A stretch of DNA of 64,000 nt. Source: Paramacrobiotus metropolitanus. Lineage: Eukaryota; Tardigrada; Eutardigrada; Parachela; Macrobiotidae. The stretch is from the NCBI RefSeq assembly GCF_019649055.1, contig NW_026570297.1:434001-498000 (forward strand). Direction: 5' to 3'. The translations under genes and the position numbers were made by a program. The notes below the pieces were generated by a model. That model had not been told where the DNA came from and did not search any database. It was given only the letters and a program-made list of their open reading frames with translations. Below are positions 1 through 20,120 of this stretch, in pieces (position 1 is the first letter of the stretch; each line of letters begins with the position of its first letter).

Positions 1-413
1 TTGTCCAACTGCGTGGACGGTATCCTAATGGAAGTTATGGTTAACTATCCTCTGCGTGTACATATTTATTTGTATCAGATGTAAGTGTGTCCGTACTGTA
101 TATAGGGGAAGAAGTAGACGTGTTCCACCGTTCCCCTGTACTGCTGCCGTCACCCAGCTGGAGCGTGACATTACGGCAATACATATGGCTAAATCTGGCG
201 CGGTACATAAGCGCCATGTTCAGCCATAAGGTCCATATTTAAACGTCACATTCCAAGCGGGTGACGGCAGCAGTACAGGGGAACGGTGGAACACGTCTAC
301 TTCTTCCCCTATAAACAGTACGGACATACGTACATCTGTTACAAATAAATAAGTACACGCAGAGGATAGTTAACCATAACTTCCATTAGGATACCGTCCA
401 CGCAGTTGGACAA
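1..413. mobile_element. Foldback element with ~175 bp terminal inverted repeats
   Basis: The first ~175 bases and bases ~240-413 are inverted copies of each other: the window opens with ttgtccaactgcgtgg and the right arm ends with its reverse complement at 413. The outer ~155 bp of each arm match nearly perfectly and the inner 20 bp are looser. Only about 65 bp lie between the arms, and there is no coding capacity. This looks like a non-autonomous foldback or MITE-type DNA element. The left edge coincides with the window edge, so the element may extend further left and no target duplication can be read. Confidence 0.75.
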
Positions 414-599
414 TGTAGGTACAAATGGTTTATAACAGAAGTGCTTCTAATATCTGTAATTAGTATAGAATTTTTGTAAAATTATGTAAACTTTCCAGTA
501 GATTTTCCAGTAGCCTGTTGAAGTCTCCGTTAGTGGAATTTGGCTACCACAGGTGCCATAGTAATAATAATAATAGCAATAACAATGAGTGCAAACGCT

Positions 600-1033
600 T
601 CAGGATTTAATTACATATGTAAAATTACCCCCATAATGGTAAAACGTAGCCGGTGCATAGTTTGATATTCCATTGCAACCTTGATTACGTTGACCCGCGG
701 AGCGCCAGTAGCATGACTCTGAATTGCATAGATAGAAGAATCCGAGATCGGATACAAGTAAGCGTGATTCTCCATAGCCCCATGTCGCCGTATCCCAGTA
801 CAGAGTTTCCATCCTGTCATTTATATTATAAGTTCCCAGCATAAAGTTCCCATCATTAGAGAGGAAGGCTTTAGCCGGTGGTAAGGCCTCGGTTCTACTT
901 GCGAAGACAGGAGCACTATCGCACTCTCGGTAAAGTACCAAATTCTGGTCCGTTTGCAAAGTCAGTCGGAAGGTTTTTGAGGGAGAATAGTAGTTCTTGC
1001 CGGGGACCATAAACTCTGAGGCCTTTAGTGCCA
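600..1033 (-). CDS. Bulb-type (B-type) mannose-lectin domain protein, last exon
   Basis: An open frame of about 144 codons ends at a TGA. Near its start it has the B-lectin sugar-binding signature QxDxNxVxY, here QTDQNLVLY, preceded by a PGKNYYSPS segment typical of the domain's first strand. Two later repeats (LSNDGNFML, and VSDLGFFYL) are degenerate, so perhaps only one canonical sugar pocket remains. The domain usually spans about 110 residues and binds mannose-like glycans. No in-frame ATG precedes the domain; the first Met is inside it. A pyrimidine-rich acceptor ending in cag lies just before 1033, so an upstream exon, probably with a secretion signal, is expected. A good donor (gtaagt on the minus strand) is visible near 1261-1266 but I could not define a convincing first exon. 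The C-terminal tail holds several cysteines, fitting a secreted protein. The domain call is good; the gene model is partial. Confidence 0.6.
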
Positions 1034-2373
1034 CTGGAATCGAAAATAATGTCAGTCGCACTCGGACAGTCTAAGGCCGGGCTGTACTGCGGGAGTCTGC
1101 GGCATCTTGTTCCACTGTAACCGACCTCAAACGTTTGGACAATAAAAATTACCTGCCATTCACCGCATCCGAACGTTCTGGTCGGTTACAGACGGGCCAG
1201 CCAGCAATACGTACTACTACATAGGGCGAGGGCGGTTACAAAAAGAACGTGGTAATGTATACTTACCGCTACCGTTTGCAAACTGTTCTGCCGACGTGAG
1301 GTTTAGCGTACTGGTTGACGGCGACGGGGATCGTTCCGGGTTCCTGCACTTTTCCGTTGAATGCTGGATAGAAACTGCAGAATCATTCTGTCACTATTGC
1401 TCCAACTTCCAAGCGCTAAGTACATACAATAAATGTAGTTACGATCTGCAATCAGCAGTACCTACACGGACTGAAACAAGGCATGTAGATGTGTTTGTCC
1501 AGCAGATCAGGGTCATAGCGAAGAAGCTGTTCTTCCGTATTTTTTATCACCATTTCCGAAACAGTACAGTTTTGCTTATCTGTACGACAATATGAGGTGC
1601 AACTCATACAGCCAGCTGCAATTTCATTGATGTTAAGAAATAGTAGCACAGATAGCGGTCACTTACTTGCTGTCATGGCACTTGTCCTCAAGAAAGAGTA
1701 TACGACAATGTTCATGCACGCGTACAAATATTTGCGCAACAAGCAAGGAAACATGATAATTATTAGGAAATATCGAGACAGCCCTTCGACAAAGGAGTTT
1801 CTGCGATTCTGCACTTCAGACAATTCTGCAATTTTTTTCTCGATATTTGCGGACAACCTTTTATGCCCTTGGACAGCAGATGCAGATAAAATGGGCGAAC
1901 CAGATATATGATCGAGTGAGTAGAAAACCCAGGAATTTAAAAGATATGACAGTAATGGTTCACCAGAAATTGACGGGTATTAGCTGCTTTTGTTGCTCCG
2001 CCAACAACTTGACATCAGTTGTGCAGCAACTAAAAAAGTCTGTCAGACATTTCTATTCACCGGCAAGACATTAAGTACATTACATCACCGTTTTAGCGAA
2101 ATCGCTTCGATCTTGACAGTTAATGGCACCCTGATTGATAGCAGAAATTAAATTTGGGCATGTTAATGATCAACATTGTTTTACCTCGCAATTGCAGCTA
2201 AAGCATTCTTAAGTCAGAATATGACATGTTGACGTCGAAAACACAGATATGATTATAGTAAAAAATAAGCAGCTTGGTGCTTAATGTCTACCACGTGCTT
2301 TTGCAGCAGTGGACGAGGTAACTACAGTAATACGACCGAGAACGTAGATATGGGGCCGGCGCTAAACGGCAAA
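1034..2373. other. Intergenic, no gene recognised
   Basis: No open frame here resembles a known family. A minus-strand donor-like gtaagt near 1261-1266 may belong to an upstream exon of the lectin gene. The right boundary is the sharp point at which the first UGT fragment loses similarity to the intact gene. Confidence 0.5.
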
Positions 2374-3340
2374 CACCCGGCAGAATGGGCTGCTGATGCT
2401 GGCGGATGGAGAAAATAAACGGCTTTTTCAACGCCTGCAAAGCCTTAGCAATCTCCACGATACGGCTCTCGTTGGGAACGACCACAGAGCCAAACGACAC
2501 ATACACCACGGAATTATCAGCTTGACGGTCCAACCAACGTGTGACCTTTTGTCCGAGTTCGGCGTGGCTGGGATTTTTATCGTCCTTCTCTTCCGGCATA
2601 AACGGTCCAACGCAGTAATAGTCCATGTTGCTCATACGCAAATCCTGTTTGATTTCGTCGATAAAATGCTGTTCAATTTCCCGGAACGAATTGGTAAGCA
2701 TCCCGTTACCGGTGGACAAGAACGGGTTAATGCCTAAACACATCCCCTTCATAATCTGACCGATGGCTGGTTGTGGGCGTTCCGACTCGGGACGGATAAA
2801 ATCAAAACTTTCCAAGTCGTTCTTTTCGATTACCGGTGTGCGCTCGGTGATATACAGAATAGTGCGGAACGGTCCAATGGATGAGCAGTTTAGAAAATAG
2901 TAGGGCAGTTTACGTTTCAGACACCCGACTACACTGGCAGCAATAAAAATATCCGCTACCAACGCATTAACTGGCACGGTAATACCGTAGCGTTCTACAC
3001 CATCTGCGGGCGGCTGTCCAGCGACAGGAAGACCTTTAATCAGTTTTTGCATTGCCGGGACGCCGTGGTCTTTGAACCCTACAAAAGACATGTAGCAGAC
3101 GATATCCTCTGATTCATTTTCCGCGATGCCGTCTTCCAGTCCGACAACGTGGATGGATTTTTCATCTTCCGGTGTAATCTCTTGTTTCTTGCGAATGTGC
3201 TCCACGGCAGCTTTGCAGATGACGAAGGTGACTTTGTGTTGGCGAGATGCCAGCTTCCTCGCCAATCCTACCATGGGGATGGTGTGTCCGTAACCCGGGA
3301 CAGAGACAAGGAGAAAATGTTTTATCTCCTTTTGGGCCAT
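2374..3340 (-). pseudogene. UGT copy A: N-terminal two thirds of a glycosyltransferase, 3' truncated
   Basis: From its ATG at 3340 this copy runs colinear with the intact UGT at 5806-7218 for about 322 residues. It includes the PGYGH acceptor-site loop with the catalytic-type His and the VVYVSFGS strand. Similarity stops abruptly after the Leu-Pro-Gly codons (2374). The frame runs on into unrelated sequence to 2288 and encodes no donor-binding box, so the product could not bind UDP-sugar in the usual way. There are no stops in the retained part, so the break is recent or the frame is still tolerated. Its 5' flank (3341 to about 4360) is homologous to the flank of the intact gene. The break point is exactly reciprocal to that of the copy at 12913-13362. 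Confidence 0.8.
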
Positions 3341-4360
3341 TGTAAATTGGTGATACTACTAAAAACAAGTTATTGCTCTGGCTTCGTTGAGAATTCTTAA
3401 GTTTAATAAATTTATAACCGTCAGCAGGAATCAAACCGGCAAAGCGTGGATAAATAAATGTACCATCGAAAGAAAACGTAAACGTGATCAGCAATCAACC
3501 AGAGAAGTCGCTACAAATCCCACGATAAAGGCGCCTGTGTAATGATAAAACACGGTATCCAGTTCGTAACTGATGGTGTGTCCAAAGATATGTAAAACTA
3601 CATAGAGTACTCTAGGTATCCAACACGCAAAATCCACATCAAAATGTAATACAATCCACTGCAAATACGCGAGCCACGACGAGCGTGTACTCATACTTTG
3701 TACCGCGCGAATACTGGAACAAGATTTGAATTCGTTTCACAAAAGCGGCCAAACCAGGTAACATTTTGGTTTCTTGTTTGCTTTACATATATACGAGGAC
3801 GATGGGATTAATTTGCAATACCCAGCAGTTTGAAAAAAATGCATTCAACGCATTGCTGTCAACTATTCTACAGAACAGGTTTTAAACCACTGCTCGTAGC
3901 AATAGTTCAGTTGTCAGGTCACAAAACGGCATAGACAGCATGGCACTTATCAGACTGATCGTGAGTTGTCAGAATTAGCGTAGAAATGTAGAAACATTTC
4001 GCTCAGATTAAAATATAACGTACCATGACAGTTAATATTATTACCTTGCATTATAGTGTACAGATGGACACAATAAAAAGAATGATATTACAGTAATGTT
4101 TATAATTATGTAATTGTTATTTGGCTACCGCCAAAATTACGGATTCATTTGACACGAGTTAGAGCCATACATTATAATTTCTGACGCAACCAGGTCCGAA
4201 AAGGTGTACGAATAAACTGTTGATTGCTTAATACATGAAGCCAGAAGCCGTAATAAAATAGTTATCGATTGCGAAAATTGTGAAATTTTGCAATACTGGT
4301 GAAATATAATAAAATTACAATTAAATAAAGTATAGTTTTTGTTAAAGGCCTTTGTCTGGA
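3341..4360. repeat. Duplicated UGT 5' flank, left copy
   Basis: This non-coding stretch upstream of UGT copy A matches, with substitutions and small indels, the stretch upstream of the intact UGT (7219 to about 9490). Shared landmarks include gaatcaaaccggcaaa, aaaatccacatca, the tactttgtaccg segment, and a distal block around gaaaattgtgaaatt. The right copy is longer because it carries an inserted element (7497-7992) and expanded palindromes near 8355-8468. The shared promoter side implies that gene plus flank duplicated as one unit of several kb. Confidence 0.7.
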
Positions 4361-4383
4361 CACTGGTTTCTTAGACAAACCAG

Positions 4384-4411
4384 ATACTGGATACTGGATA
4401 CTGGATACTGG
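4384..4411. repeat. Tandem 7 bp repeat, four copies
   Basis: The unit atactgg is repeated four times without interruption, directly at the point where UGT copy B loses its C-terminal part. The repeat probably formed at, or marks, the truncation junction. Confidence 0.85.
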
Positions 4412-5107
4412 TGTGCCAAAATCAGCTTTTGTGGCGCCCAGTGCAAAAATAATCCCGGTGCTGCGGGGTCATCGAGATGGGTGTCAATACCGACGCGCAC
4501 ATCACCCGGCAGAATAGATTGTTAATTCTGCCGGATGGAGAAAATGAACGGCTTTTTCAGCGTTTGCAGCGCCTTGGCCACCTCGATGATGCGATTTTCG
4601 TTAGGGACGACCACAGAACCAAACGACACATACACTACCGATTTATCGGCTTGACGATCCAACCAGCGTGTGACCTTCTGACCCAGTTCCGCGTGGCTGG
4701 GGTTTGTGTCGGCTTTCTCTTCCGGTACAAACGGCCCAACGCAGTATAAATCCAAATTCTTCATTCGCGGATCCCGCTTAACCTCATCAATAAACTTCTG
4801 CTCAATCCCTCGGAAAGAATTAACCAGCATTCCGTTAGCAGTGGCGAGAAATTGGTTGATGGACAAACAGAGACCTTTCATGATGTGACTGATCGCCGGT
4901 TGCGGGCCTTCCGATTCCGGTCGTACAACATCAAAGCTCTGCATGTCGACTTCTTCGGACTGCTTCACCGGTGTCCGCTTGGTAATATTGAGCATCGTGC
5001 GGAAAGGTGCAATATAGGTGAGCAGTTTAGGGCCAAAGGTCACGGAATTTGAAGGGCATCGTGCGGAAAGGTCCAATAGCTATTAATAGCTGAGCAATTT
5101 AGGGCCA
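4412..5107 (-). pseudogene. UGT copy B: internal fragment with in-frame stop
   Basis: This minus-strand fragment covers the middle of the UGT, from the FRTMLNITKRTPV region through the VVYVSFGS strand and the start of the donor-binding box ([13 protein letters not shown]). An in-frame TAA (4522-4524) interrupts it where the intact gene has a glutamine-rich IRQHQQ segment, and the box is cut off at a 7 bp tandem repeat. At the N-terminal side a stretch of about 40 bp (gcatcgtgcggaaaggt...) occurs twice (near 4994 and 5055), a local duplication at the break. It lacks the N-terminal acceptor domain. Clearly a dead copy, more diverged from the intact gene than copy A. Confidence 0.85.
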
Positions 5108-5126
5108 GGCCAGCTCACGCTCACAG

Positions 5127-5354
5127 ACTGTATACGAGGTTTGCGGTTTGGATGACTTCAAAGACAATCTGGGCTTGACTGTTGAAACTGTTCAGCTGCT
5201 TAACTCCGTCGGATATACAACTATCGCAAAGCTTCTGAGACATACTTTCATACGAACTAATTAAAGAAATCTAACTAGACCTTTTCGCACGATGCTCAGT
5301 ATTGCCGAGCGGACACCGGTGAAGGAGCTCGAAGAAGCCGACATGGAGAGCTTC
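5127..5354 (+). pseudogene. UGT remnant in opposite orientation
   Basis: On the plus strand, 5280-5354 reads PFRTMLSIAERTPVKE and then an acidic segment ending DMESF. This lines up with PFRSMLYVTERTPV...DLESF of the intact UGT on the minus strand, so this piece is inverted relative to the cluster. Upstream, 5127-5262 is an open plus-strand frame whose EVCGLDD and NSVGYTTIAKLL segments resemble the VVGLEDG and VGFKDHGV-type region of the family, but this part is only a weak match. The two pieces are separated by a TAA. The segment looks like a relic of an older, divergent UGT copy that faced the other way. Confidence 0.5.
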
Positions 5355-5805
5355 ATAATATGTTCTCTGTTTAAGGTGTGCTGTTCTGTGTATATTCTGT
5401 GTTGCTTCTTGAATTATGTATAATACAGACATTTTACTATCGGTACCGTAAAGTTTGTAGAACCGTACAAATTGCATAAACGTTAAAGCCCACTGAGCAA
5501 ACGTATACGGCAATGACATGCGATGACTATTAATATTAGTACTCCTATATAAACTAAAGTAGTTTGAAAATTTTTTTTAAATTAATCGAACCTAATGCAT
5601 TTCACGCAACGTACTTTTGTATCAACTATGTAGTGACAGCTCGATAACATCGAGAATAAAGCAACAGAGAAGCTACGCAAAACATAGAATTAAAGGAGGA
5701 AACGTTACAAATGCACTTATTAATTGTCAGCAAAATAGCCAATATAAGCCACAACCCACAATGTCATATCGCTTCGATAATTTAGCCCGAGTTGACACAG
5801 ACTTA

Positions 5806-7218
5806 TTACACCACGGCATCAATAAAGTCTTGCAGTTCACGGTTAGAACTTCCACCCGGTGCGACGGCCTCTCGAATCTTGTCCTTCCATTTCAGCGCCG
5901 ACTTCCGTGCCACATCACTCTCATATCCAACGCGCCGGACAGCTGCGGCAATTTTTTCGCTGGTGATGTTCTTTTTCTCTTCATCATTATCAGCGTGCTC
6001 GCGACGAAGCAATGACTCTCCCAAACCCATCTCTTCAATCCACAAGGAATTCTCCAGTTGATCCCCAAAAATCGGCCAACCCACAATCGGCTTGCCGTTG
6101 AACAAACTCTCAATAGTACTATTCCATCCGCAATGGCTGACAAAAACCGCTGTGGCTCGGTGGGCCAGAATCAGTTTCTGAGGCGCCCAGTGCAGAAACA
6201 GTCCTGGCGCTTCCGGATTATCCAAGTGTGTATCGATGCCGACGCGTACATCACCCGGCAGAATGGATTGCTGATGCTGGCGGATCGAGCAGATGAATGG
6301 TTTTTTCAGCGCCTGCAGAGCCTTAGCAATCTCCACGATACGGCTCTCGTTGGGAACGACCACAGAGCCAAACGACACATACACCACGGAATTATCAGCT
6401 TGACGGTCCAACCAACGTGTGACCTTTTGTCCGAGTTCGGCGTGGCTGGGATTTTTATCGTCCTTCTCTTCCGGCATAAACGGTCCAACGCAGTAATAGT
6501 CCATGTTGCTCATACGGGAATCCTGCTTGATCTCGTCGATAAAACGCTGTTCAATTTCCCGGAAAGAATTGATGAGGATTCCGTTGCCGGTAGACAAGAA
6601 TTGGTTCATGGCTAAACACATCCCCTTCATCATTTGACCAATGGCCGGTTGCGGGCCTTCCGACTCAGGGCGGATAGTCTCGAAACTTTCCAAGTCGTTC
6701 TTCTCGGTTACCGGTGTGCGCTCGGTGACGTACAGCATACTGCGGAACGGTCCGATGGCCGAACAGTTTAGAAAATAGTAGGGCAGTTTGCGCTCCACAC
6801 ATCCGACTAAACTGGCTGCAATGAAAATATCCGCTATCAATGCATTAACCGGCACTTTGATACCATAGCGTTCTTCAGCATCCGTGGGGGGCTGTCCAGC
6901 GACAGGGAGGCCTTTGATGAGTTTTTGCATTGCCGGGACGCCGTGGTCTTTAAACCCTAAAAAGGATGTGTAGCAGACGATATCCTCCGATTCATTCTCC
7001 GCGATGCCGTCTTCCAGTCCGACAACGTGGATGGATTTCTCATCTTCCGGTGTAATCTCTTGTTTCTTGCGAATGTGCTCCACGGCAGCTTTGCAGATGA
7101 CGAAGGTGACTTTGTGTTGGCGAGTTGCCAGCTTCCTCGCCAATCCTACCATGGGGATGGTGTGTCCGTAACCCGGGACAGAGACGAGGAGAAAATGTTT
7201 TTGCTCCTTTTGTGCCAT
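5806..7218 (-). CDS. UDP-glycosyltransferase with plant-type PSPG box, intact (copy C)
   Basis: A single-exon gene of 470 residues, the usual length of a plant-type family 1 glycosyltransferase (GT-B fold), which moves a sugar from a UDP-sugar to a small lipophilic acceptor. The N-terminal acceptor domain begins HFLLVSVPGYGHTIPM, with the likely catalytic His at residue 19 and a partner Asp near residue 130 (ALIADIF). The C-terminal donor domain has VVYVSFGS (about 279-285) and a full PSPG-like box from W344 (WAPQ...LAH...SHCGWNS...GDQ) with the terminal Asp-Gln at 386-387. There is no signal peptide at the start and no C-terminal membrane anchor, unlike the ER-bound animal UGTs, so a cytosolic enzyme is expected. 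The ATG at 7218 matches the start in two other copies. It is the only unbroken copy in the cluster. Substrate unknown. Confidence 0.9.
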   Translation of the reverse strand: MAQKEQKHFLLVSVPGYGHTIPMVGLARKLATRQHKVTFVICKAAVEHIRKKQEITPEDEKSIHVVGLEDGIAENESEDIVCYTSFLGFKDHGVPAMQKLIKGLPVAGQPPTDAEERYGIKVPVNALIADIFIAASLVGCVERKLPYYFLNCSAIGPFRSMLYVTERTPVTEKNDLESFETIRPESEGPQPAIGQMMKGMCLAMNQFLSTGNGILINSFREIEQRFIDEIKQDSRMSNMDYYCVGPFMPEEKDDKNPSHAELGQKVTRWLDRQADNSVVYVSFGSVVVPNESRIVEIAKALQALKKPFICSIRQHQQSILPGDVRVGIDTHLDNPEAPGLFLHWAPQKLILAHRATAVFVSHCGWNSTIESLFNGKPIVGWPIFGDQLENSLWIEEMGLGESLLRREHADNDEEKKNITSEKIAAAVRRVGYESDVARKSALKWKDKIREAVAPGGSSNRELQDFIDAVV

Positions 7219-7496
7219 GGTGAATTGGTAACACTAGTAAGGAACAAGAAAACAGTGGAAGCTTGCTCGGTAATGTATTCGCTGACGTTCTTACGAATTC
7301 TTCAACGTAATAAATTTTTTACCGTCTGGAGGAATCAAACCGGCAAAACGTGGAAGAATAAATATACCGTCGAAAGAACACTTAAACGTGCTCACCAATA
7401 ATCAGAGAAACTGTTACAAACTGTGAGATAAAGCGCCTGTGTAATGATAAGATACCTACCCTAGTGCAACTGCAATATGCACTCTAGATCTCCAAA

Positions 7497-7992
7497 TACC
7501 GTAATTATCGAATTTGTGGCCCTGGGGTACAAATAGTTCGAAGGCTATGGCGGAGGGGGGCGTATTTCGGGGAGGGGGCGCAATTTCGGGGGGTGGCACT
7601 ATTTTTCGAACGGTATTTTTTGGGAGGGGGCATCATATTTCAAACAACTTCGCATCCAGTTCTAGTGGACCTGAACGCAGTAGTTACCTGTATACGCAAC
7701 AGCGCAACCTTCCCTGCAACATTTTCGAGCGTATACTGAGATCCCTGTACACCTTTTTTTGCCAACGAATACCGCATTATATTGATGTGCGTTTAATGTT
7801 TGCTCATAAGCACAACAATTTTTAAAAAGCATTTGCGGTACACCAATAATTTTGCAGCGCTTGACATTTAATAACGGCCCCCTGGGGCGTAATTTCGGGG
7901 GGTGGCCTTATTTTTCAGAGAGGGTCGGGGAGGGGGCTTATTACAGGGGGGCTCTTATTGCGGGGGGAGCCACAAATTCGATAATTACGGTA
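7497..7992. mobile_element. Non-autonomous DNA element with 27 bp inverted ends and G-rich interior
   Basis: The ends are inverted copies: taccgtaattatcgaatttg at the left and its complement at the right. The interior carries G-rich runs of 4-7 G near both ends on the same strand (around 7553-7633 and 7878-7967). No transposase frame is present. It is missing from the homologous flank at 3341-4360, which demonstrates insertion after, or loss before, the duplication. A family of animal DNA elements with cgaat..., G-rich sub-terminal repeats looks like this, but I cannot name it with confidence. Confidence 0.75.
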
Positions 7993-8354
7993 TATCGTAC
8001 GTATTTGACACTGGTTTAGCGCTTACCATTAATTAACTGCGTGCAGATTGTGGCATGCCGCATGACGGTTATCTTTCCGTGTTTCTTGGAATGATTAAAT
8101 TAGCGAAGTCATGATTGTCTGATACTTTTACCGAATTACAGATATCAGAGAATTCCACGTAACTGGATCCAAAGATATGTAGAGCTATAATATAGATACC
8201 CAACATGCAAAATCCACATCATGATGCAATGCGATGCACGGTGTACTCGTACTTTGTACCGTGCAAATACTGGAACAGGTTTTGAATCGCTACTACAAAA
8301 GCGGCTAAGCCAAACTGCATTTTAGTTTTTTGTTCTCTTTATAGGAGGACGATG

Positions 8355-8468
8355 GGAAACTGCAATTCGGAGCAGCTGCTCCGAATTGCAGTTTCCGAAT
8401 TCCGAATTCAGTTTCCGAATTCCGAATTCCGAATTTTAGTTTTTTTCAGACTGCAGTCTGAAAAAAAC
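8355..8468. repeat. Two perfect palindromes flanking a ccgaatt repeat
   Basis: 8355-8396 is a 42 bp perfect palindrome centred on cagctg, and 8439-8468 is a 30 bp perfect palindrome centred on ctgcag. Between them the unit ccgaatt is repeated with minor variation. The homologous flank near 3805 has only single, non-palindromic counterparts of these motifs (the cagcagtttgaaaaaaa stretch), so the palindromes arose locally in this copy. Confidence 0.85.
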
Positions 8469-8590
8469 AAATATTAATTCACATTCAACAGAATTCTAAC
8501 AACTATGCAGAACAGGTTGTAAACTTTACCGGCTTGCAGCTGCTGCAGTCATAAAACAACTGCATGGAATCGGACTATTTAGTGTAAAAA

Positions 8591-8687
8591 TGTTCAGATT
8601 CAAATATAGATATCTTACTAGCTATACACCGTATAATTATACATGTTCAGATTCCAATATAGATATCTTACTAGCTATACACCGTAG
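8591..8687. repeat. Direct tandem repeat, two copies of ~53 bp
   Basis: The segment tgttcagattcaaatatag...ctatacaccgta at 8591 recurs at 8644 with one substitution in the first 45 bases. Simple local duplication with no coding meaning seen. Confidence 0.85.
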
Positions 8688-9818
8688 ATACGCCACTGTG
8701 ACAGGCAAGCACAGAGAGCTCACAGATGACTTTATTGTACAAATAAAGTGGAGCAAATGCCGCGTGAATGCGGGGAAAAACACAACAAAGGCCAGTGTCT
8801 GGCAGAAATCAGCAAGTCAAGTTGCTGCGAGCTAGTTCTAGAGCGTAATGAAATGTAGAGAAAGAAATGTGCTGGCGGCAACGGCGTCACGCTGTCCAGA
8901 CACATGGAATGTGAGTGCGCAGACTGGACTCGTATCCAACGCGAGCGAATATACGCTGAGTCATACAGCGAGAGAGAGGAGCGAGAGAGCAAGTATGCTC
9001 AGTGAGTGCGCCCGCGGTGTATCCGCATAGGCGGAGAGTGCAGTGCAGCCACTCACGTACGTACAAGAGAGGGCGAATCAGCATGTGTGCAGTGATACGC
9101 ATACGCAAAGTGGCGTATCTATCACGCAGGCTGTCGTGCCTCTAACACCACACTATATGTACACCAGATATCCGTTATTAAGTGTACATATTATGCTGAC
9201 AAGTGACGATAATATTTCTTAAAAGAACACCATTGACTTTTGTATGATAATGATTAGTTTGGTTACCGGCGTACCGCCATAATTTTATTACGTACGGCCG
9301 GGTTGATTTATTAATACAAATCCAGACCATTATGGCGTATTGTACGCTGGTTGGAAGAAATGTGTGAGTAAACTGTCGCTTGTTTACATGAAGCCGCAAT
9401 AATTAGTACAGTAAAATAATTATCGGTTGACGATTTTGAAAATTGTGAAATTTGCATTACTGGAAAGGAGACGCTTTTCAAGACACTGGACAGTGGACGG
9501 CACTGATGAATACACAGCCAGCCACTTATGAGTAAATTGTATGAGTGCTTATGAGTAAATTGTTAAAGCAGACATGCCACCACCGGGCAGCATCTACAAC
9601 GACCGTTTAACTACTCCAGGGTTGTTCTCACCCATATCGCACGTTTGGATTAATATCGATAGCGATAACGGATTAAAAATTTTAATATGACAATTTTATT
9701 CGCTAATAACTACCGAGTAGTTAGTGTGTTACTGACTTACTGTAGTTTCTTCCTTGAAAGCTAAATTTTGCCCAAAAACACCATCAGCGCACCATAAATT
9801 TTCCCATTGTTTGAAAGT

Positions 9819-10689
9819 ATGGCAAGTGCAGATCAGACTGCACCACCTCTTGATCTGGACGATCTGCTGCAGCAGACCTTGGCTGACTTCGACAAACCCG
9901 ATCTCCTTCCCAGTGAAAAATCTCTCCACAATCCGTCCGCTCCTGGTGCCTCCCATCCCACGCCATCTGCAAAATCTCCCCACCCCCCCTACTGCGCATC
10001 CACCCCCACTAGCCGATGACGAGGAGAAGTTTTTCCGTGAAACCTCCCAGGAGATCAACGAGATCCTCACCTCCATCGACCAGGAAGATCCCGCGCTAGC
10101 TCAACAACTCCGCACCCTCACCGAGTTCGCCAACAGCGTCCACAAGCCCGACGAGCAGACCGCCATGCACAATTTTACCCAGTTCGCCTCGCTCTTTAAG
10201 GAAACCCTGCAGACCATCAGCACCCACACGGGACTGCAGTCGGACGAACTGGTGGATGATGATCTGACGGATATCATGGAGAATTTGGATAAATTAGCCA
10301 TGGGTAAGGAGAGCGGGGCGGGTGCGACCGAGGGGATTCCCGATGTGGTGCAGTCGATGCTATCGAAATCTGTGATGCTCAGTTCGTTGAAAAAGTGCCA
10401 TGAGGAGTATGCGCCGTGGATTGCGGACAAGCGCGGGACACTGGCGCCGAAGGAGCTGGAACGGTGTGAAGCGCAGTTAACGCAAGTGGGCGCCTTGATT
10501 GCCGAGTATGAAAAAGCCGAGGAGCCGTGTTATGCGCGCATTGTGGAGATGATGGCGCGGTTGCAGGAGTTGGGGGAATTTCCGGAGGAACTGATGGCGA
10601 AAGTTAATACTAAAGCGTTTGTCGGGGGAACGGAGGGGAAACGGGATGAGCGGCCGGAACTGGATGTTCCGGACTGCAGGACCTCGTAA
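9819..10689 (+). CDS. PEX19: Peroxisomal biogenesis factor 19 (PEX19)
   Basis: PEX19 is the cytosolic receptor and chaperone that delivers peroxisomal membrane proteins to PEX3. The N terminus (MASADQ..., then LDDLLQQTLADFDKP) matches the disordered PEX3-binding start of the family. The body (EEKFFRETSQEIN, VQSMLSKSVMLSSLKK, ARIVEMMARLQELGEFPEEL) matches the helical cargo-binding domain, and the protein ends CRTS, a farnesylation-type CaaX box. The N-terminal part and the body are in different frames. A 67 bp intron at 9946-10012 (gtgcct...ccactag) restores the frame exactly and gives 267 residues, close to the human 299. Alternatively an indel in the seven-C run (9983-9989) would explain it. 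The intron's donor is weak but its tract is pyrimidine-rich. The gene lies inside the UGT cluster on the opposite strand, with its start about 330 bp beyond the end of the duplicated UGT flank. Confidence 0.9.
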
Positions 10690-11738
10690 TCTGTTTTTTT
10701 TTATCTTTTTGGTCGTTCATATTGCCAGTTCATAATTACAATTCCAGTTCATTTTTTTGAATTTTTTGTAGTGGTTGCTTTCGCCGTATTACGCTTTGGC
10801 ATTGTGGTGCACGTTGGCTGCTTTATTGTATATCTGCTAGTCAGAATCTCTACGAGTATTGTTGTGTGTATTAACATTATTTACAGTTTACAAGTGCTCG
10901 CTGCATTTACAGTAACTTACATGAGTTACAGACTTACAGTCATAAAATAAACGAATAATATATGTTTTAGCTATTGTATTAAAGGTTTTCCATATTACAG
11001 TATAACTGTTGTCCATACTTCTATTACATATTAGTGATATGACTGATATTACAATTTGTGGATTATTCCGGATAAACAGTTTCAGCAGAAATCTCTTCGC
11101 GCTGACGATGAGAGTTCAGCAGTAACGAGTTTTTTCAAAAGAGATCTTTTGTCGTTCAGCGAGACATCAGTTACCCGGTCACGCGATGTATATACAGTAT
11201 ATACGTCGAGCATGATTGCAATCGTCTGGACTTGGCTCAATTCCACTGTTTACACAATTTATCTGTAGGTACTGACCGTACTGTACATGAAGTGTGATGC
11301 AATGCAATAACTTCCCATTTGCTTTTTGTGTTTGCTTTTCCAGGTATGTACATTATACATATACCTAACTTTTAATACAAGTCTATTGTCGTGTAGGTAT
11401 TCCTATACAAATCATTACTGGTTTTTACGCTACAGACAGATAGAGACTTTGAGCGCCAAAAATGAATACGATCATTATGCGGGTAAGACAGAAGTACCGG
11501 TTTGCTGCCGGGGACGGGTGCTTAGTCTGCTGACAGTGCGGTATTGTCCCATGTCGTGTCGTGAATTTGCGTTGCTTGCAAAATCATTGGAGCTTTGCTT
11601 TTATAATCGCCTAGCGTTCGCACATAAGTGCCCGTAAGCGGCATCGTGCACGTGCCAATCAATGTATCGTTCCTTCATAGATGCACGCTTTTTTTTAAAT
11701 TCACTCATATAATTCATATTTCATTTATTAACCATAGC
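10690..11738. other. PEX19 3' region and intergenic sequence
   Basis: A canonical AATAAA polyadenylation signal lies at 10946-10951, about 260 bp past the PEX19 stop. Beyond it I see only AT-rich sequence and short frames without family resemblance. Confidence 0.5.
10946..10951 (+). terminator. PEX19 poly(A) signal
   Basis: AATAAA hexamer about 260 bp downstream of the PEX19 stop codon, followed by AT-rich sequence. Confidence 0.5.
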
Positions 11739-11948
11739 TTAGTACTGTCCGATAAGATCGATTGATTTTTCATCTTCCGGTGTGATTTCACTCTTTTTTC
11801 GAATATGTTCCACAGCAGCTTTGCAGATGACAAAGGTGACTTTGTGATTACGCGCTGCCAGTTTTCGGGCCAATCCCACCATCGGGATGGTGTGCCCGAA
11901 TCCCGGGATGGAAATCAACAGAAAATGTTTTGTGGTGTTTTGGGCCAT
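11739..11948 (-). pseudogene. UGT copy D: N-terminal 66-residue fragment
   Basis: Starts at a proper ATG and matches the intact UGT through the PGFGHTIPM acceptor loop to the EDEKSID segment. It then leaves the family at IGQY and stops. The retained codons are clean but lack most of the acceptor domain and all of the donor domain. Its 5' flank does not resemble that of copies A and C, so it was copied or translocated without its promoter. A 32 bp tandem duplication (11963-12026) sits directly upstream. Confidence 0.85.
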
Positions 11949-11962
11949 GGTATATTTGCACT

Positions 11963-12026
11963 CTAGCGCTTATATGAAATTCAGAAAATGATACCTAGCG
12001 CTTATATGAAGTTCGGAAAATAGTAC
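11963..12026. repeat. Tandem 32 bp repeat, two copies
   Basis: ctagcgcttatatgaa... at 11963-11994 is repeated at 11995-12026 with four substitutions, just upstream of the truncated UGT copy D. Confidence 0.8.
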
Positions 12027-12912
12027 CGGTGCTGCTAGCGGTCTGACTGCTAACTCTTGAGAAATCACACTGGCAAGATCTGGAGCAACGTTACTGCTGA
12101 TATACAAATATAAAGGAGAATTAAAGTCAGAGTTCGGCATCGCCGACACGTGCACTGATAAGATAAGCACTGTAATTGTTTGGAAATGCTAATTAATCAA
12201 AATAATACGATCGCATGCTGTAATAGATATGGATTACTAACTGGTCGGCGTTAAAACCGCTGCCATATCTTTCTCGCATTCATTATACTCGCAGTTACAG
12301 TAGATCGAATCATGAGCCAATAATCTGTCTAGTGCATTTCTCGATTAGAATTGTTTGAAGTAGGCCCTGGTTCTGCAGAGTGGGTATCAAATTAATTAAT
12401 TGGAAAGGGTTTCTACTAATCTGCTATGTGTACAAGCACAGTACGAGTACTGTAGCCGGGCAATTATTTTAATAGTTTTGTACACAGGAAAGTATTATAC
12501 TCGTACGTGTAACACGTATTCTGTATCAGGTGTTTCTGTTCTGTATTCTGTTGTTCCAGAATCGTTTACAGTAGAAAGTATAGTTACACAATTCATAAAA
12601 GTTGAAGTTCAGTCTTACGTATACGACATTGATGATGGGCGATGAATGTTAATTAGCAATCCTCTGTAAAGTAGTTTCACAACCTTTTTTTAACTAATCG
12701 TACTTCATGAACTTCGCGCAACGTACGGTTATATTAATTATGTACTGACAGATCGTTAACATCGAGAATTAAGTAACAGCAACGCGATGCAAACATAGAA
12801 AGAAGGAAAATTAGTATTGTAAATGCACTTGTCGGCATAACTAGCCCCTATAAGCCACAACACAAAACTAACATCGCCGAAATTAAGTTCAGCAAGAGTT
12901 GACACAGACTTA
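12027..12912. other. Intergenic; right part is duplicated UGT 3' flank
   Basis: About 12640-12912 aligns with the sequence just downstream of the intact UGT (about 5500-5805): shared blocks include ttaacatcgagaat / ataacatcgagaat, tataagccacaac and gagttgacacagactta. The remainder (12027-12640) shows no gene or repeat I can name. Confidence 0.55.
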
Positions 12913-13362
12913 TTACACCACGGCATCAATAAAGTCTTGCAGTTCACGGTTAGAACTTCCACCCGGTGCGACGGCCTCTCGAATCTTGTCCTTCCATTTC
13001 AGCGCCGACTTCCGTGCCGCATCACTCTCATATCCAACGCGCCGGACAGCTGCGGCAATTTTATCGCTGGTGATGTTCTTTTTCTCTTCATCATTAATTA
13101 TCAGCGTGCTCGCGGCGAAGCAATGACTCTCCCAAACCTATCTCTTCAATCCACAATGCATTCTCCAGTTGATCCCCGAAAATCGGCCAAGCGACAATAG
13201 GCTTGCCGTAGAACATGCTCTCAATAACGCCGTTCCATCCGCAGTGGCTGACGAAAACCGCTGTCGCTCGATGGGCCAAAATTAGCTTTTGCGGGGCCCA
13301 ATGCAAAAACAGTCCTGGTGCTTCCGGATTATCCAAGTGTGTATCAATGCCGACGCGTACAT
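12913..13362 (-). pseudogene. UGT copy E: C-terminal third, 5' truncated and frameshifted
   Basis: This copy begins in mid-gene with [16 protein letters not shown] and contains the whole donor-binding box ([28 protein letters not shown]). Compared with the intact gene the Ser after HCGWN is Gly. A 4 bp insertion after the EHADN codons creates stop codons and a frameshift. The remaining C-terminal codons (DEEKKNITSDKIAAAVRR ... to the TAA at 12913) are otherwise intact in the shifted frame. The 5' break corresponds exactly to the 3' break of copy A. The 3' flank is homologous to that of the intact gene. Confidence 0.88.
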
Positions 13363-13533
13363 AGCACTGTGCAGTACATTGTATGTAGTAGACTACAAGA
13401 CGATCCGCAGTTAACGTATCGTTTACTATCTTTAATTCAAATTTTCAAACTAGCGTTAATGGAAACATCTTAACGTAATCCGTTTGTGAACATAAAACTG
13501 AGATGACTCCCGGCAGAATTTCAGTTTACATTC

Positions 13534-16500
13534 TTAATTTTTGTCCATTTCCCAGATGAGCGTGATGTACGTCAAAGTGACCCCACATACCTGAATAACA
13601 CCCAGCCTTGTCAACTTGCTGTCTTGACTGTATGCTCACATCAAGTAACGGAAAAACAAGAAACTTCAATAGTGCTACATTTTAAATTAATGACACTCAC
13701 CGTGGCGACAAATTCTTTGTTTAATGGACAGAGCCCATAAAGTGTAAATGTGCCCTTTACCGTGATCAAGCGACTGTTGACTGCCTGTAAATAGCCAAGG
13801 TAGATGTTGCAACAACGGTCAGAGGATTTCCTAGTGTACAGCTCCGTTAAAATCGTTGTTTGAGCGCTCAGTACATCGGCCTAAAACAATATAAATTATA
13901 AATTAAATACCAACACATAGCATTTTTAACTTAAGTGAAGCCTACAGGTTTGTGGATCGGCCAAGCAAAAGGTCTTCAAATACTTGCTACGAAACTGGGA
14001 ATTATGGCAAAATTTAAACCTGGCAAAATTTAGCATCGTTATGTACAAATATTGTGTCCACTGTATACAGCAACTACATTTAAAGAATTCGGCTGTTCGC
14101 AAGACGAATACGTGGCACGTTGATAAATTACTATCGTGCGACTAGATTATATAACTTTGACGTTTTTTGCATTCCGGCCGTTTTTGCAGATATGGAGTAG
14201 GCTGAGTAGCATACCGGACAGAGATACGGAATTCTCCTCGTTGTTCCACATGGTAAAACCTTTTCAAACAGTGATTGCCTGATGATATTTACTTTTATGC
14301 ATTTTTGTACATGGATCATTAATATTATCAAGTATTCTGATGTGGAACAACGTATCGAATACCGTATGTATCTCTGGCGTCCGCTACGCTAATCCATATT
14401 GCGAAAAAGTCTGGAATGCGAAACACGTCGAAGTATTGGTGTTTTAGGAAGGTCATCATTTGACAGTGTTTTCGGGACTCGGCGAACAATAACCCTAAAA
14501 TGTCAAGGGTTATTGTTCGCCGAGTCCCGAAAACACTGTCAAATGATGACCTTCTAAATGAAATAAAGGCCAAAAACATCCTTCCACCCAACTCAGAAAT
14601 TAAAATTGTCATCCGTTTAACCAGTCGGCGCGAAGAAGTTTCCACATGTGCAGTTGTTTTGGAAGTCAGTCAGGCTGTTCGCAATATGTTGACTGACCAC
14701 CGCTTTTTAATGATTCAGTGGTCACGTTGTCCCGTAGAGGATCATGTATACATCCCACAGTGTTCCACGTGTTGCGTTTATGGCCACACTTCGACGAAGT
14801 GTGACAAATCACCCCGCTGTGCTTACTGCGCTAAAGGCCATTTGTCTACAGACTGTACGGAAAATGATGATTTTGTATTTGTGTGCCCGCTTTGCAGTGA
14901 CAGCAATGTTTACATGCCGGCCAACTACCATTCAGCATACGATCGCCCATACTGTACTGTTTTCAAAAATTCGCGGTATTTTTACAACCAAAACGTTCCA
15001 AAAAACCGGTAGACGACGTTGAAATTTTGGAAACTAACTTAACTGAGAAAACCGCTGTTTTTAATAATAAGATTTTGTCAGATCCGGTTAACCAACAGAC
15101 TGTGTCTCTTCGACAGCCGAAACATCCGGCTCCTGTTGAAAATATCCGTGTGCGATGCTGTAATGTTAGAAGCGTAAAAAGCAAACGCGAAGAAGTTAAA
15201 TTGTTCTCTTCAGTCAGTGATGTGACCGTTCTTACGGAGACATACGACAGGCCTTTCATGACAGATTCCGATTTCGCTGACCTAGATAATTTCAACGTAT
15301 TTCGAAAAGCCAGGTCTGATGGTCGTGGCGGTGTGGCTATTGTCATTCGTAACACATTACGCGCGATTTCCAGGCCTGAGCTGGAAACTCCCTTACTTGA
15401 GATTCTTTGTGTACAGTCTCTGTCTCTTGATCGAATTTTTATTGCATTTTACGCACCACCCGATAAAAGTATTCATGCAATCCCTACGCTAATTGAACAT
15501 CTGCGTTCTCGTTTCTCCCCTCATTTGTTAACAAAATGCATAATCATGGGAGATTTCAATCGGCCTGACATAAACTGGTCAGATAAAACTGCAATTAAGC
15601 CAGCAAGCCGTGAGTTGCTACACGCCGTTGAAGAATTTGGGTTAAGACAGATAATTGATTTTCCTACGAGAGAAATGAACTGCCTCGATCTGTGTTTGTT
15701 AAGCGCAAATTCACTTTTTGAACCGGCAGTTCCAATCTGTCCGCCTTCTACTAAAAATGATCACATCGTTTTGAATTTTCTTTAAAATTAAAGAAATATC
15801 GCAGAAAATTTCGGATAAAAAAGCGGTGGAAAATTGAAAAAAGTAAAGTTGACCAGTTCCTAGCTGCGCTGAACGCTGTAGATTGGGTTAATCTGCTTGG
15901 CTGCCTAAACGCTAACAAACGTGCGGATAAATTTGAAGATGTTTTTCTCGAAACAGCGAAAACTTTTTTCGTTTATGAAAATGTTAAATTGCGTAAAGGA
16001 TCGGTACAATATCCCAAAAATATCAAGAAGATAATCAATTCTCGAGATCGTGCTTTCCGTTTGTACCGGCAATTTAGATCAAGTTATTTTAAATTTAAAT
16101 GGAAAAATATTTCAAAAAAATGTGACACCCTTGTGCGGAAGTTTGGAAAACAAAAGCTTTCAAATATATCCACAGCTTTTCGAAATAATCCATCGAAGTT
16201 CTGGCGGTATATGAAATCAACCAATGATCGAATCGGCATGCCACCCTTCAAGGTGGCCGATGGCACATCCGTAACTACCGATCGTGAGAAAGCAGCCGTA
16301 CTTAACACAGTGTATCGTAACTCTCAGTCTATGTGTAATGGCCACTGTGCTGGCAGCAGCCTTGATCTGACCTGTGACAACAATGATAATTGGGAAATTT
16401 CTGAATTATTAATTTTTGAACAGCTTGCAAAAATATCCGTTACAACATCGAGCGGTAAATTTGAAATAACTAATAAACTTTTAAAAATTGCTGCTTTGTC

Positions 16501-19500
16501 TATCACTAAGCCGCTTAAATTAATTTTTAATGCCGCTATCAATGAAGGGGTATTTCCATCGAGATGGAAGCATTCTTTTATAACTCCGATACCAAAAATC
16601 TCAGCAGATCACAGATTGCCCGACAGTTATCGACCAGTTTCAATGCTAAATCCTGTATCCAAAATTTTTGAACGTTGTCTTGATCAGTTGATTCGTGAAC
16701 ACTTGAGCAGAAACCATATGCTTTTCGATCACCAATTCGCTTACCGGCACAAAAGGTCAACCGAACTACAGCTTTTTCTTTTCGTAAAATTTGTGAATGA
16801 TTTTATCAGTAACGGCACTGCTGTAGACGCCGTGTTTTTGGACTGCTCAAAGGCTTTTGTTAAGCTGTCTCATGAATCCATTATCGATGCGTTAATTCAG
16901 ATGTATCTTCCCAGTCAAATCGTGCATTTGATTTCTGATTATTTAAAAAATCGAACGCAACGTGTGACAGTCGAAAATGAAATTTCGGATCCGCTACCGG
17001 TAAACAGTGGTGTACCTCAAGGTTCTGTACTGGGCCCTTTGTTGTTTATTTGCGTATTGAATTTCATCCTTTTTGCACTAAAAAACGGAAGCGCCGCTTT
17101 CGTTTTTGCTGATGATATTGTTGTGTTTCGTCCGGTTACAACCACAGCGGACACCCAGTTACTGCAGGAAGACCTAGCGCATCTTGGTGAATGGCTTATT
17201 AACAAACAGCTCATCCTTAACGCGGCAAAGTCCGTCCACGTTCGTTTCTCAAAAAAGAAATCTCCTGATTCTTCATGTCAGTACAGTATTAACAATGTTC
17301 CTGTACCAAAGTCTGATTACGTAAAGCACTTGGGAATATTTGTTGATCGAAAACTGAACTTCAAAATCAACAGCGAAAATGTAGCAAAAAAATGCAACAA
17401 AAGAGTCAACTACATTAACCACGTTTTTCGCTACACTGACTACGGTGCCCGCATACGGCTCTTTGAAGCACTTGTCCTTTCAGTTATCGATTACTGCTGC
17501 GTCATCATGAAGCCGTCACTAAAACAGTCGAAAAATGCCATCGAAAGTTGTCAGAGAAGGTTTTCTAAAACTTTGCGACTCGGAAACGATGTCTTGAATT
17601 ACGAAAAACGTCTAAAAGAACTTGAATGGGACGATCTGATTACGCGCAGTCTGAAAAAAGCACTGCTGTTTATGTACAAATTAGTGTTTCGGGTTGTTCC
17701 GATGGGTGATCTAATTGTATCTCCCTGAAATTCTGTGCTGCTGTGCTTGAGTCTGTTGCAGGAAATACCAGAATATCAGAACGCCTCCTGAATCACCCGT
17801 GCCCGATTGAGCCGTCCCCAACAACCGTTTGTGGAATAACAGTGACCACTGCCCATGACTCGTACCTCAACAGCCTTGTGTCCGTCTGGAATGAACTTCC
17901 CCTGATGCCCAACGCCTACGTCACGTTGAATACCTTTTCCGAAGCTTTAAAGACAGTAAACTGGAACGATTTACCATCAGCTAAAGCTTTCAGAACAAGT
18001 GACTAGCATAATTACGTCTATTCTTTGGTGTTCAATGATAAAGAAGTAAATTTTAATTAGTGAAGTATCACGGTTGCGACTCAGTTGAAACTGTACAAAA
18101 GGCGATTACGTGCGTAAGAGTCCTTGCTTTCCCTTTTTCCCACGATTTCTTTTTGAAAACATTTTGAAAATTCGTAATTGTCAATGTGGGTTTTGGTTTT
18201 ATGCATCGACCCCAGCGCGATCGTCTCCCTTCCTTTTTCCACGATAACACCAACTGATCGCAACCTTTGAGACTCTCTGTACTGCCTTTTCAAGTGTTTT
18301 GCTGTTTATTATAAAACAGTGTGTGTTGTTGTCATCGTAATCACTTCATGTTTTCGTGTTTCACTTCATGATGCTGTTGTAATGTTTGGTGTGTTTTTCC
18401 TTCCGCTGTCTCGCTGTCTGAAGCTTAGAGGGGGCACTCGCTCCGTGCAAGGACAATAAACTTCCATTATTATTTATTGATGTACCTGTTCTCGAACCCG
18501 AATAGCGCAGAACAAACGCATGACCAACAGTACCGAGCCTAAGCAGACGCTGCGAATAAATTTATCCGGAGTAAACTCTTCAGAAAATAATCCCTGATTG
18601 GTGGCTCCTTTAATAATTCCAACACCCGTAATAACAACATACATGTCCGACACAAACAACCACAACAGCATCGGCCCAAAGATATCGTCCAAATCGTGTA
18701 TACGCAGGGTGAGATTTAGATGATGAGAAAACATGCAAACCAGTTGCTCACGAACACTGCGATCGAGCGAGCCTGTAAACCTCTCCACCACGTGATGCAT
18801 ATGCTGGTTAATAATGCGGAAGCCAACACAGATGGGGATTGTCATCAGCAAGAAAAGTATCTGAATGCCGAACAAGGTCAGGGCCGTCGGTGCAGACGAT
18901 AAATCATCCAAGCATCCCGAAAAATACATAACGTTATATAATGTCACAGCATGAGTGTACCGATCGTCCATAGGTCCATAGGCGATGTCCTCCGCCCATT
19001 CTCCAATGTCATCCAGGGTCACATTCTTTGGTAGTGTGATATTAAGAGACACGGACTGTACAGCGGCGAGTATGGCGGCCGAGGTGACCTTAACCGCCAT
19101 AGGCGAAGCGATTAAGGCGATCCAACTTCCGGACATAAACAAAACGACGAGAAATGACGTAACGGTTAGTATTTTATAGAAAACATCCCCGCGCTGAATT
19201 AGCCATCCAGTTTCTAAAGGTGACGGCATCAAGTCCGATATTATGCCGTTCACGTCACCTTCGAGGTCGAGCATGACCTTTGGTAATTTATAACTTTTAG
19301 CGAGAAAAAAGATGGCAATTAAGAGTGCTATACCGTTCCACTGTAGCATAAAAGCTTTTAGCAGTAACTCAGTCATTTTGTCATTACGATCGTACGACTG
19401 GTAAAACAAATAAGCAAAAAGGCCTGCATTCCCAATAAGGCACAGCATAATCCCTGTTGACCATACGCGCAGCAATATTGATACCCCGCGACGAACGTAA

Positions 19501-19646
19501 TAAAAAGTCCTTGCATTGCGTTTGTCAGTTGGGGATCGATTAAGTAGAAGTTTAACATAACTAGGGAATATGCCCATTAGAGCAAAGACAAACAAAAACA
19601 CCTTTAACAACGACAAAGTGATTGTAGGTGTAGTCTTGGCATGCAT
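13534..19646 (-). CDS. Gustatory-receptor-like seven-transmembrane protein (GR1)
   Basis: Three exons in phase 0: 18486-19646, 13701-13880 and 13534-13590, giving 465 residues. Exon 1 (387 codons) holds six hydrophobic segments, a second extracellular loop with NIT and NVT glycosylation sequons, and the family-typical LTLRIHDLDDIFGPMLL stretch before segment 6. Exon 2 adds the intracellular TVKGTFTLYGLCPLN region, and exon 3 the last membrane helix with TY at the position of the receptor family's TYhhhhhQF signature, here TYITLIWEM. These proteins are ligand-gated cation channels for tastants in insects; the ligand here is unknown. Intron 1 is 4.6 kb because a LINE sits in it in antisense; intron 2 is 110 bp. 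The partner gene at 20121-22011 has the same exon plan and supports the splice calls. Exon 1 alone reads through its donor to a stop six codons later, so it should not be mistaken for the whole gene. Confidence 0.82.
14500..15012 (+). pseudogene. LINE ORF1 (zinc-knuckle nucleic-acid-binding protein), 5' truncated
   Basis: About 170 residues. Two CCHC-type knuckles are visible, CSTCCVYGHTSTKC and CAYCAKGHLSTDC, with a further cysteine pair near the C terminus (CPLCSD). In this retrotransposon class ORF1 coats the RNA. The N terminus is replaced by the hairpin junction, so the normal start and any N-terminal domain are missing; the ATG at 14500 lies in the hairpin loop and is probably fortuitous. 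It stops 15 bp before the next in-frame ORF2 codon reported. Confidence 0.8.
15027..18006 (+). pseudogene. LINE ORF2: endonuclease and reverse transcriptase, frameshifted
   Basis: 15027-15785 encodes the endonuclease (VRCCNVRSVKSK, LTETYD, IIMGDFNRPDINW, KNDHIVLNF). A one-base loss in a T run near 15775 shifts the frame, and the reading continues through KLKKYRRKFR into the reverse transcriptase (about 15785-17728). That part has PIPKISADHRLPDSYRPVSM, NSGVPQGSVLGPLLF and the catalytic FADD. A second shift near 17710 leads to the C-terminal part (17743-18006) with YLNSLVSVWNELP. All catalytic motifs survive, so decay is recent. Confidence 0.87.
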
Positions 19647-20120
19647 GGTGAAATGGTGCGAGACTGCGAGTAGTCATCGCATTTCTGCCTAAAGGTCTCT
19701 GCTGAGCCGGTGAAAGTATACGGCTGCGAATCGATTCACGAATTTTTACACTGAGCGCATGTTCTCGTTTTCTATATGAGCGCAAGCTAATCCACAAGGT
19801 ATGCTATTTAAGACACATCTTAATATATCAACTTCGTCGTATCCATGCAGCAAATAGTATTCGGTTATCTGGAGACCACGAAAATGTAAACAAAATTTCT
19901 GACATCAAACTAAGGATACGAGTGCAATAAAAGCAACAATAAAAGGCTACGGCTACGAGTACCAACAATTTACGGAAAGCACATGTGTACGGTCATTGCA
20001 TCGATTTGCGAAGTTTTACAGTGCATCATAGATCTGGGAATTCAGGCAAACGGATTCATGGAATATCCTTCGGGAATAGTGGTTCTCGATAGTCACATAG
20101 TGGTATCGTAAGGTTGGGTA
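19647..20120. other. Intergenic spacer between the two receptor genes
   Basis: About 470 bp separating the start of GR1 from the last exon of GR2. It must hold the GR1 promoter and the GR2 3' UTR. No further coding signal seen. Confidence 0.5.

Follow-up and report, generated by a model that had tools for sequence, protein, structure and literature searches.

Rotated, base-exact copy of a UGT and PEX19 gene block in a tardigrade genome points to duplication through a closed DNA circle

The analysed window, a stretch of 64,000 nucleotides, corresponds to positions 434001–498000 of contig C77; the genome that was searched comprises 169.8 Mb in 533 contigs. Between 2374 and 13362, the window contains five whole or partial copies of a UDP-glycosyltransferase (UGT) gene, all on the minus strand; the third and fourth copies are separated by a PEX19 gene on the plus strand, and Pfam UDPGT and Pfam Pex19 are the respective domain calls. 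Only the UGT gene at 5809–7218 (minus strand, 470 codons, Pfam UDPGT) is intact. The leftmost copy (2374–3340, minus strand) is an N-terminal part of about 322 codons, the frame of which extends into the left flank and reaches a stop after 28 foreign residues. Its other half lies at the opposite edge (12913–13362, minus strand), where the C-terminal part of the same gene has no start and carries a 4-bp insertion at 13093–13096. The remaining two copies, also on the minus strand, are a pseudogene retaining the middle part (4410–5030) and an N-terminal remnant (11747–11948). The PEX19 copy (9819–10689, plus strand) has a frameshift near 9983 in a run of C, which is possibly a homopolymer error of the assembly.

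Alignment to the intact gene at 5809–7218 indicates that homology begins at 2374 in the leftmost copy, corresponding to 6252, and ends at 13362 in the rightmost copy, corresponding to 6251. The copy at 4410–5030 crosses this position and the remnant at 11747–11948 stops short of it, so that the cut at this position affects two of the five copies.

A translated search of the same genome (80 matches) revealed a second UGT cluster on contig C25, and C25:614001–654000 was compared with window positions 1–20000. Window 2374–11189 corresponds to C25:623318–631144, two repeat insertions aside, and window 11197–13362 corresponds to C25:619612–623317, of which 1.5 kb is absent in the window; both lie on the same strand as in C25, and this comparison revealed no match (E up to 1e-5) beyond window 2374–13362. 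The plus-strand blocks comprise 2374–7498 (C25:623318–628439, 99.1% of aligned bases), 7991–8633 (C25:628438–629099, 99.2%), 9145–11189 (C25:629103–631144, 98.3%) and 11747–13362 (C25:621671–623317, 98.9%), as well as the more divergent 11197–11748 (C25:619612–620153, 90.4% identical, with many indels). The order A-B/C-D in C25 is C-D/A-B in the window, both blocks being in direct orientation: the two outermost bases of the window block lie side by side in C25 (623317/623318), with a gap or overlap of 0 bp, and the two ends of the C25 block (631144 and 619612) come together inside the window block. The two copies are non-tandem and located on separate contigs, which may belong to one chromosome or to two.

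The C25 segment 619612–631144 (about 11.5 kb) contains three UGT genes, a UGT fragment and PEX19. A 227-residue part of PEX19, used as a query, matched at two places only in the genome, the window and C25, in agreement with the suggestion of the earlier note that this gene was carried along with the block. That note had also read the "wrong" order of the minus-strand copies as a circular permutation, and the presence of an unrotated counterpart in the same genome bears this reading out. In contrast, another copy of these units, at C25:795576–800623, is inverted but colinear and was ruled out as a second rotated copy.

The intact gene at C25:622875–624284, with an open frame of 475 codons, spans the point at which the window copy is split; window bases 2374 and 13362 align to C25:623318 and C25:623317, adjacent bases in this open UGT frame. 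C25 reads GCGTACAT followed directly by CACCCGG, and in the window CACCCGG follows the left flank at 2374 and GCGTACAT precedes the right flank at 13362. Not one base of the presumed circle is lost, gained or common to the flanks at this point, and no microhomology is present. Both the alignment of the copies and the comparison with C25 place the break points at the reciprocal bases reported earlier from the window alone, with no gap or overlap. Since the gene is whole at the opening point in C25, and an open frame hardly arises from two ragged ends, C25 is taken to keep the older order, and the transfer would have run from C25 to C77.

The same comparison bears on a reading of the edges as exon boundaries, with the leftmost copy as the first exon and the rightmost copy as the second exon of two separate intron-bearing genes. 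A GT is found 3 bases inside the left edge and an AG ends 4 bases outside the right edge, as such a reading would have it; however, besides the five copies, a translated search of the window gave an inverted piece of 25 residues at 5280–5354 (E-value 0.002) and otherwise only E-values of 0.10 or worse, so that no missing exon was found, and the four intact genes of the C25 cluster are uninterrupted at that position. C25 shows both halves as one gene, with about 99% identity, and after this match the exon-boundary reading, to which we assign a negligible probability, was dropped.

The outer ends of the C25 segment are united in the window by a single join at 11189–11197, connecting C25:631144 to C25:619612 through seven extra bases (11190–11196), whose resemblance by eye to a local repeat of GTATATAC may be a mark of polymerase-theta-type joining. 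Searches with C25:619250–621670, C25:631145–633145 and window 10690–12900 found no homology between the donor ends. Excision of the circle by homologous recombination between tandem UGT copies was rejected, the join linking two intergenic sequences with no match between them. About 550 bp from this join, the window copy has a separate deletion, corresponding to about 1.5 kb between C25:620153 and C25:621671, with 2 bp of microhomology; the block between the join and the deletion is only 90% identical.

These features make it very probable that the C25 segment was duplicated through a closed DNA circle, which was opened inside a UGT gene and joined into C77. An ancestral C25 segment of about 11.5 kb (619612–631144) would have become circular by the joining of its two ends; the circle would then have opened within the UGT gene, at the single point between 623317 and 623318, before being inserted at the unrelated C77 site with no circle bases lost or gained. 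End joining may have served as the chemistry. The donor ends have no homology to each other and the acceptor flanks no match to the cluster. The opening of a circle had been proposed from the window sequence alone, and C25 strengthens the proposal, since the window edges directly adjoin each other in an intact C25 gene and the donor ends are joined inside the window block.

Rotation of this kind may also be produced by a linear source, if C25 formerly contained two or more tandem 11.5-kb units and a stretch exactly one unit long, with its ends inside the gene, was copied to C77. The cluster is indeed a tandem gene array of mixed divergence, and an older second unit in the source would explain the 10% divergence of the block at 11197–11748. 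An exact length of one unit with zero gap or overlap would nevertheless be a coincidence of about 1 in 11,500 for free ends (the unit length in bases), and a single PEX19 and a single best copy of each block were found in C25, making this origin very unlikely. Replication template switching (MMBIR/FoSTeS) may alternatively have written the left side of C77, 623318–631144, 619612–623317 and the right side of C77 in succession, with no free circle. The seven extra bases at the join resemble, by eye, a local copy of GTATATAC, which speaks for template switching; at the same time, the last switch must have stopped exactly one base before the place where the first began, and the two outer joins have no microhomology, so we regard this series of switches as highly improbable. 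The reciprocal bases that weigh against both alternatives are those expected of a circle opened at one point.

The flanks of the insertion are unrelated to the cluster. For the left flank (420–2373, the span used as the query in the genome search, which did not include window 1–419), only short stretches of up to about 90 bp match elsewhere in the genome; the right flank (13363–14463) is unmatched elsewhere in the genome to about 14148 and then passes into a repeat. Comparison of the left 200 bp with the expected continuation of the gene gave a score of 17, reached by 160 of 500 shuffles, and the right 200 bp gave a score of 22, reached by 10 of 500 shuffles and due to an 11-bp match alone; for longer flanks, the scores were reached by 72 of 100 and 92 of 100 shuffles. 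Homology running past the break points, which the earlier note had named as speaking against its proposal, was thus looked for in both flanks and not found, the scores lying within those of the shuffles or, on the right, being that of the 11-bp match. No target site duplication was seen at 2374/13362, the flanks sharing one base end to end, and the inner ends, compared by eye, are not inverted repeats of each other; transposition as a mobile element was rejected, given that there are neither terminal repeats nor a target site duplication at these positions. Bases may have been lost at the target site. A search of the same genome for a second copy of the flanks or an empty allele found none, a result that is no proof of absence, and no Pfam match was obtained for a hand-read exon pair lying to its right.

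The 11-bp match, CCCGGCAGAAT, recurs at 13509–13519, 147 bp outside the right edge. Proposed earlier as a possible microhomology, it is real and rare in shuffles (when the 80 bp surrounding the opening point were compared with 200 bp of either flank, a longest match of at least 11 occurred in 1 of 300 shuffles, for a match picked out post hoc), but its location 147 bp outside the edge does not suit a role in joining. Integration through this match, as a single crossover or as filler, would require an extra 146 bp exactly at the edge, and was rejected because the 146-bp stretch is unmatched elsewhere in the genome and the flanks share only one base. Neither a crossover nor a duplication through the 11-bp match yields the observed sequence, and the match at 13509 stays unexplained; in the account of a circle, this rare match in the right flank is left over.

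After its arrival on C77, the copy would have lost 1.5 kb in one UGT gene, received two repeat-element insertions and acquired the PEX19 frameshift, and would probably have been partly homogenised with C25 by gene conversion. The missing stretch of about 1.5 kb contains most of a UGT gene that is intact in C25 (620460–621872), of which the remnant at 11747–11948 is left. The pseudogene at 4410–5030 has its counterpart at the same place in C25 (625347–625967), and the PEX19 copy of C25 is an open frame. The intact gene at 5809–7218 differs from C25:626749–628158 in 4 of 470 residues (NG86 dN 0.0037, dS 0.029); the net gain of the duplication is one extra UGT gene with an intact frame.

The first insertion (7499–7990) is a repeat element with a TA target duplication and with terminal inverted repeats that are identical over at least 22 bases; it is absent from the C25 position and occurs in at least 39 other places in the genome (40 of 214 candidates scored). 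The second stretch of extra DNA (8634–9144), also absent from C25, consists of a local direct repeat with a period of 53 bp and a 448-bp repeat element (8697–9144), which has at least 39 other matches in the genome (40 of 404 candidates scored), with identity of up to 100% among the copies listed. Membership of both insertions in repeat families, together with their absence from the C25 positions, accords with a circle derived from C25.

The insertions also bear on the quality of the assembly, in which reads of the C25 locus might have been joined into C77. The available text of PMC8277472 describes an assembly, possibly the same one, that was built from nanopore reads under settings by which heterozygous variants are retained. 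Yet the copies differ by about 1%, by a deletion, by several indels and by two repeat-element insertions, of which one carries a TA target duplication. The joins are reciprocal to the base, and the genome search gave no second copy of the flanks; an artefact is thus hardly to be expected.

The divergence between the two copies is not uniform, so one recent copying of today's C25 sequence alone does not fit. The four closest blocks contain 101 substitutions in 9429 window bases, and outside two patches there are 71 substitutions in 9042 aligned bases (0.8%). One patch is located at the left edge (2389–2440, 9 substitutions in 52 bp) and the other in PEX19 (10146–10480, 21 substitutions in 335 bp), where 113 codons from 10144 give an NG86 dS of 0.20 and a dN of 0.03; in 2000 random placements, densities as high as those of the densest 60-bp, 100-bp and 340-bp stretches arose 0, 4 and 0 times, respectively. 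Four substitutions at 11136–11167 lie just before the closing join, and the fifth block (11197–11748) has a divergence of 9.6%. In the left-edge patch, the window bases at 2389 and 2440 are absent from every other aligned copy; at 2408, 2414, 2420 and 2423, the window bases are common to other paralogs and C25 has those of its neighbour gene. Since the window agrees with an inverted paralog (L004) at six of the nine sites, which paralog conversion or retained older states can explain, the patch says little on age, and the odds of an old insertion are lowered by its weakening as a sign of age.

A search of the genome for a third copy of the block at 11197–11748, as a source of its divergence of about 10%, found none. 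This block is short, with the join on one side and the deletion on the other separating it from longer homology, and conversion between the loci would be least able to reach it; its position mildly favours an old insertion that was partly overwritten from C25 by gene conversion. A mosaic source would also fit the uneven divergence. The right edge has no patch, with one substitution in its last 170 bp, and the PEX19 patch is not at an edge, two observations that run counter to an old insertion. It is conceivable, although we hold it with less than even confidence, that the circle-borne copy is old, with about 10–20% neutral divergence that survives in the block next to the circle join and in part of PEX19, and that gene conversion between the two unlinked loci has since kept it near-identical to its donor; if so, a date based on the 1% difference would be far too young.

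A flip from A-B/C-D to B-A/D-C is described as the signature of a circular intermediate in the available text of PMC7450558, which lists circle-mediated duplication in few eukaryotes (yeast, Nile tilapia, cattle and human). The human segmental duplication pairs presented there share with the window block the flip, the direct orientation, the non-tandem site, the lack of end homology, a closing scar of a few bases and opening at one point; unlike the block of about 11.5 kb described here, which was opened in a gene of a tandem family, those 16 cases span 22–3918 kb. The cattle colour-sidedness translocations, as cited in PMC7450558, likewise moved a gene-bearing segment through a circular intermediate, but involve 492 and 575 kb, the KIT gene and a visible phenotype. 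Human eccDNA-mediated duplication, in the account available from PMC7188851, also proceeds by circularisation of a fragment, a cut elsewhere in the circle and reinsertion, in another organism and with other genes. A search of open-licence literature found no paper on extrachromosomal circular DNA in tardigrades.

The mechanism is already known, and the window block is a fresh, base-exact and well supported example of it, in which three joins are legible to the base, the block is small and a gene is split exactly in two. It may serve as a test case for asking whether detoxification genes are spread by end joining that follows chromosome breakage, and as a warning that percent identity may misdate circle-borne copies.

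Two further UGT sequences were found on C25, the contig that carries the unrotated UGT-PEX19 cluster. Locus L025 (G000:C25:795001-801500) is an additional copy of the UGT units, inverted in orientation relative to that main cluster and colinear in order, with identities of 84 and 87% across two long stretches. Locus L024 (G000:C25:646060-646741) is an N-terminal UGT fragment with approximately 80% identity to positions 11756-12497 of the window, and its truncation point lies within some 10 bp of the place where remnant D, an N-terminal UGT piece at 11747-11948 within the insertion, is cut.

The left end of the window contains an inverted repeat (1-413; arms 1-172 and 242-413, complementarity 94%), perhaps a foldback-type element, and a minus-strand frame (603-1067) with a weak lectin-like match to Pfam B_lectin (E 0.028, below the Pfam cut-off). 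A stretch resembling a retrotransposon (14464-18006) lies 1.1 kb to the right of the insertion; within it, the frame at 15761-17725 encodes a reverse transcriptase (Pfam RVT_1). A Pfam search gave no match for the candidate membrane-protein gene at 13536-19673, which would combine a frame at 18474-19673 (minus strand) with small putative exons around 13536-13600 and 13690-13880; our guess would be that it encodes a membrane protein of the chemoreceptor type and that the retrotransposon sits in an intron.

Inside the insertion, the 448-bp repeat element at 8697-9144 has copies elsewhere in the genome shown at 100% identity, so this element has probably been active recently.
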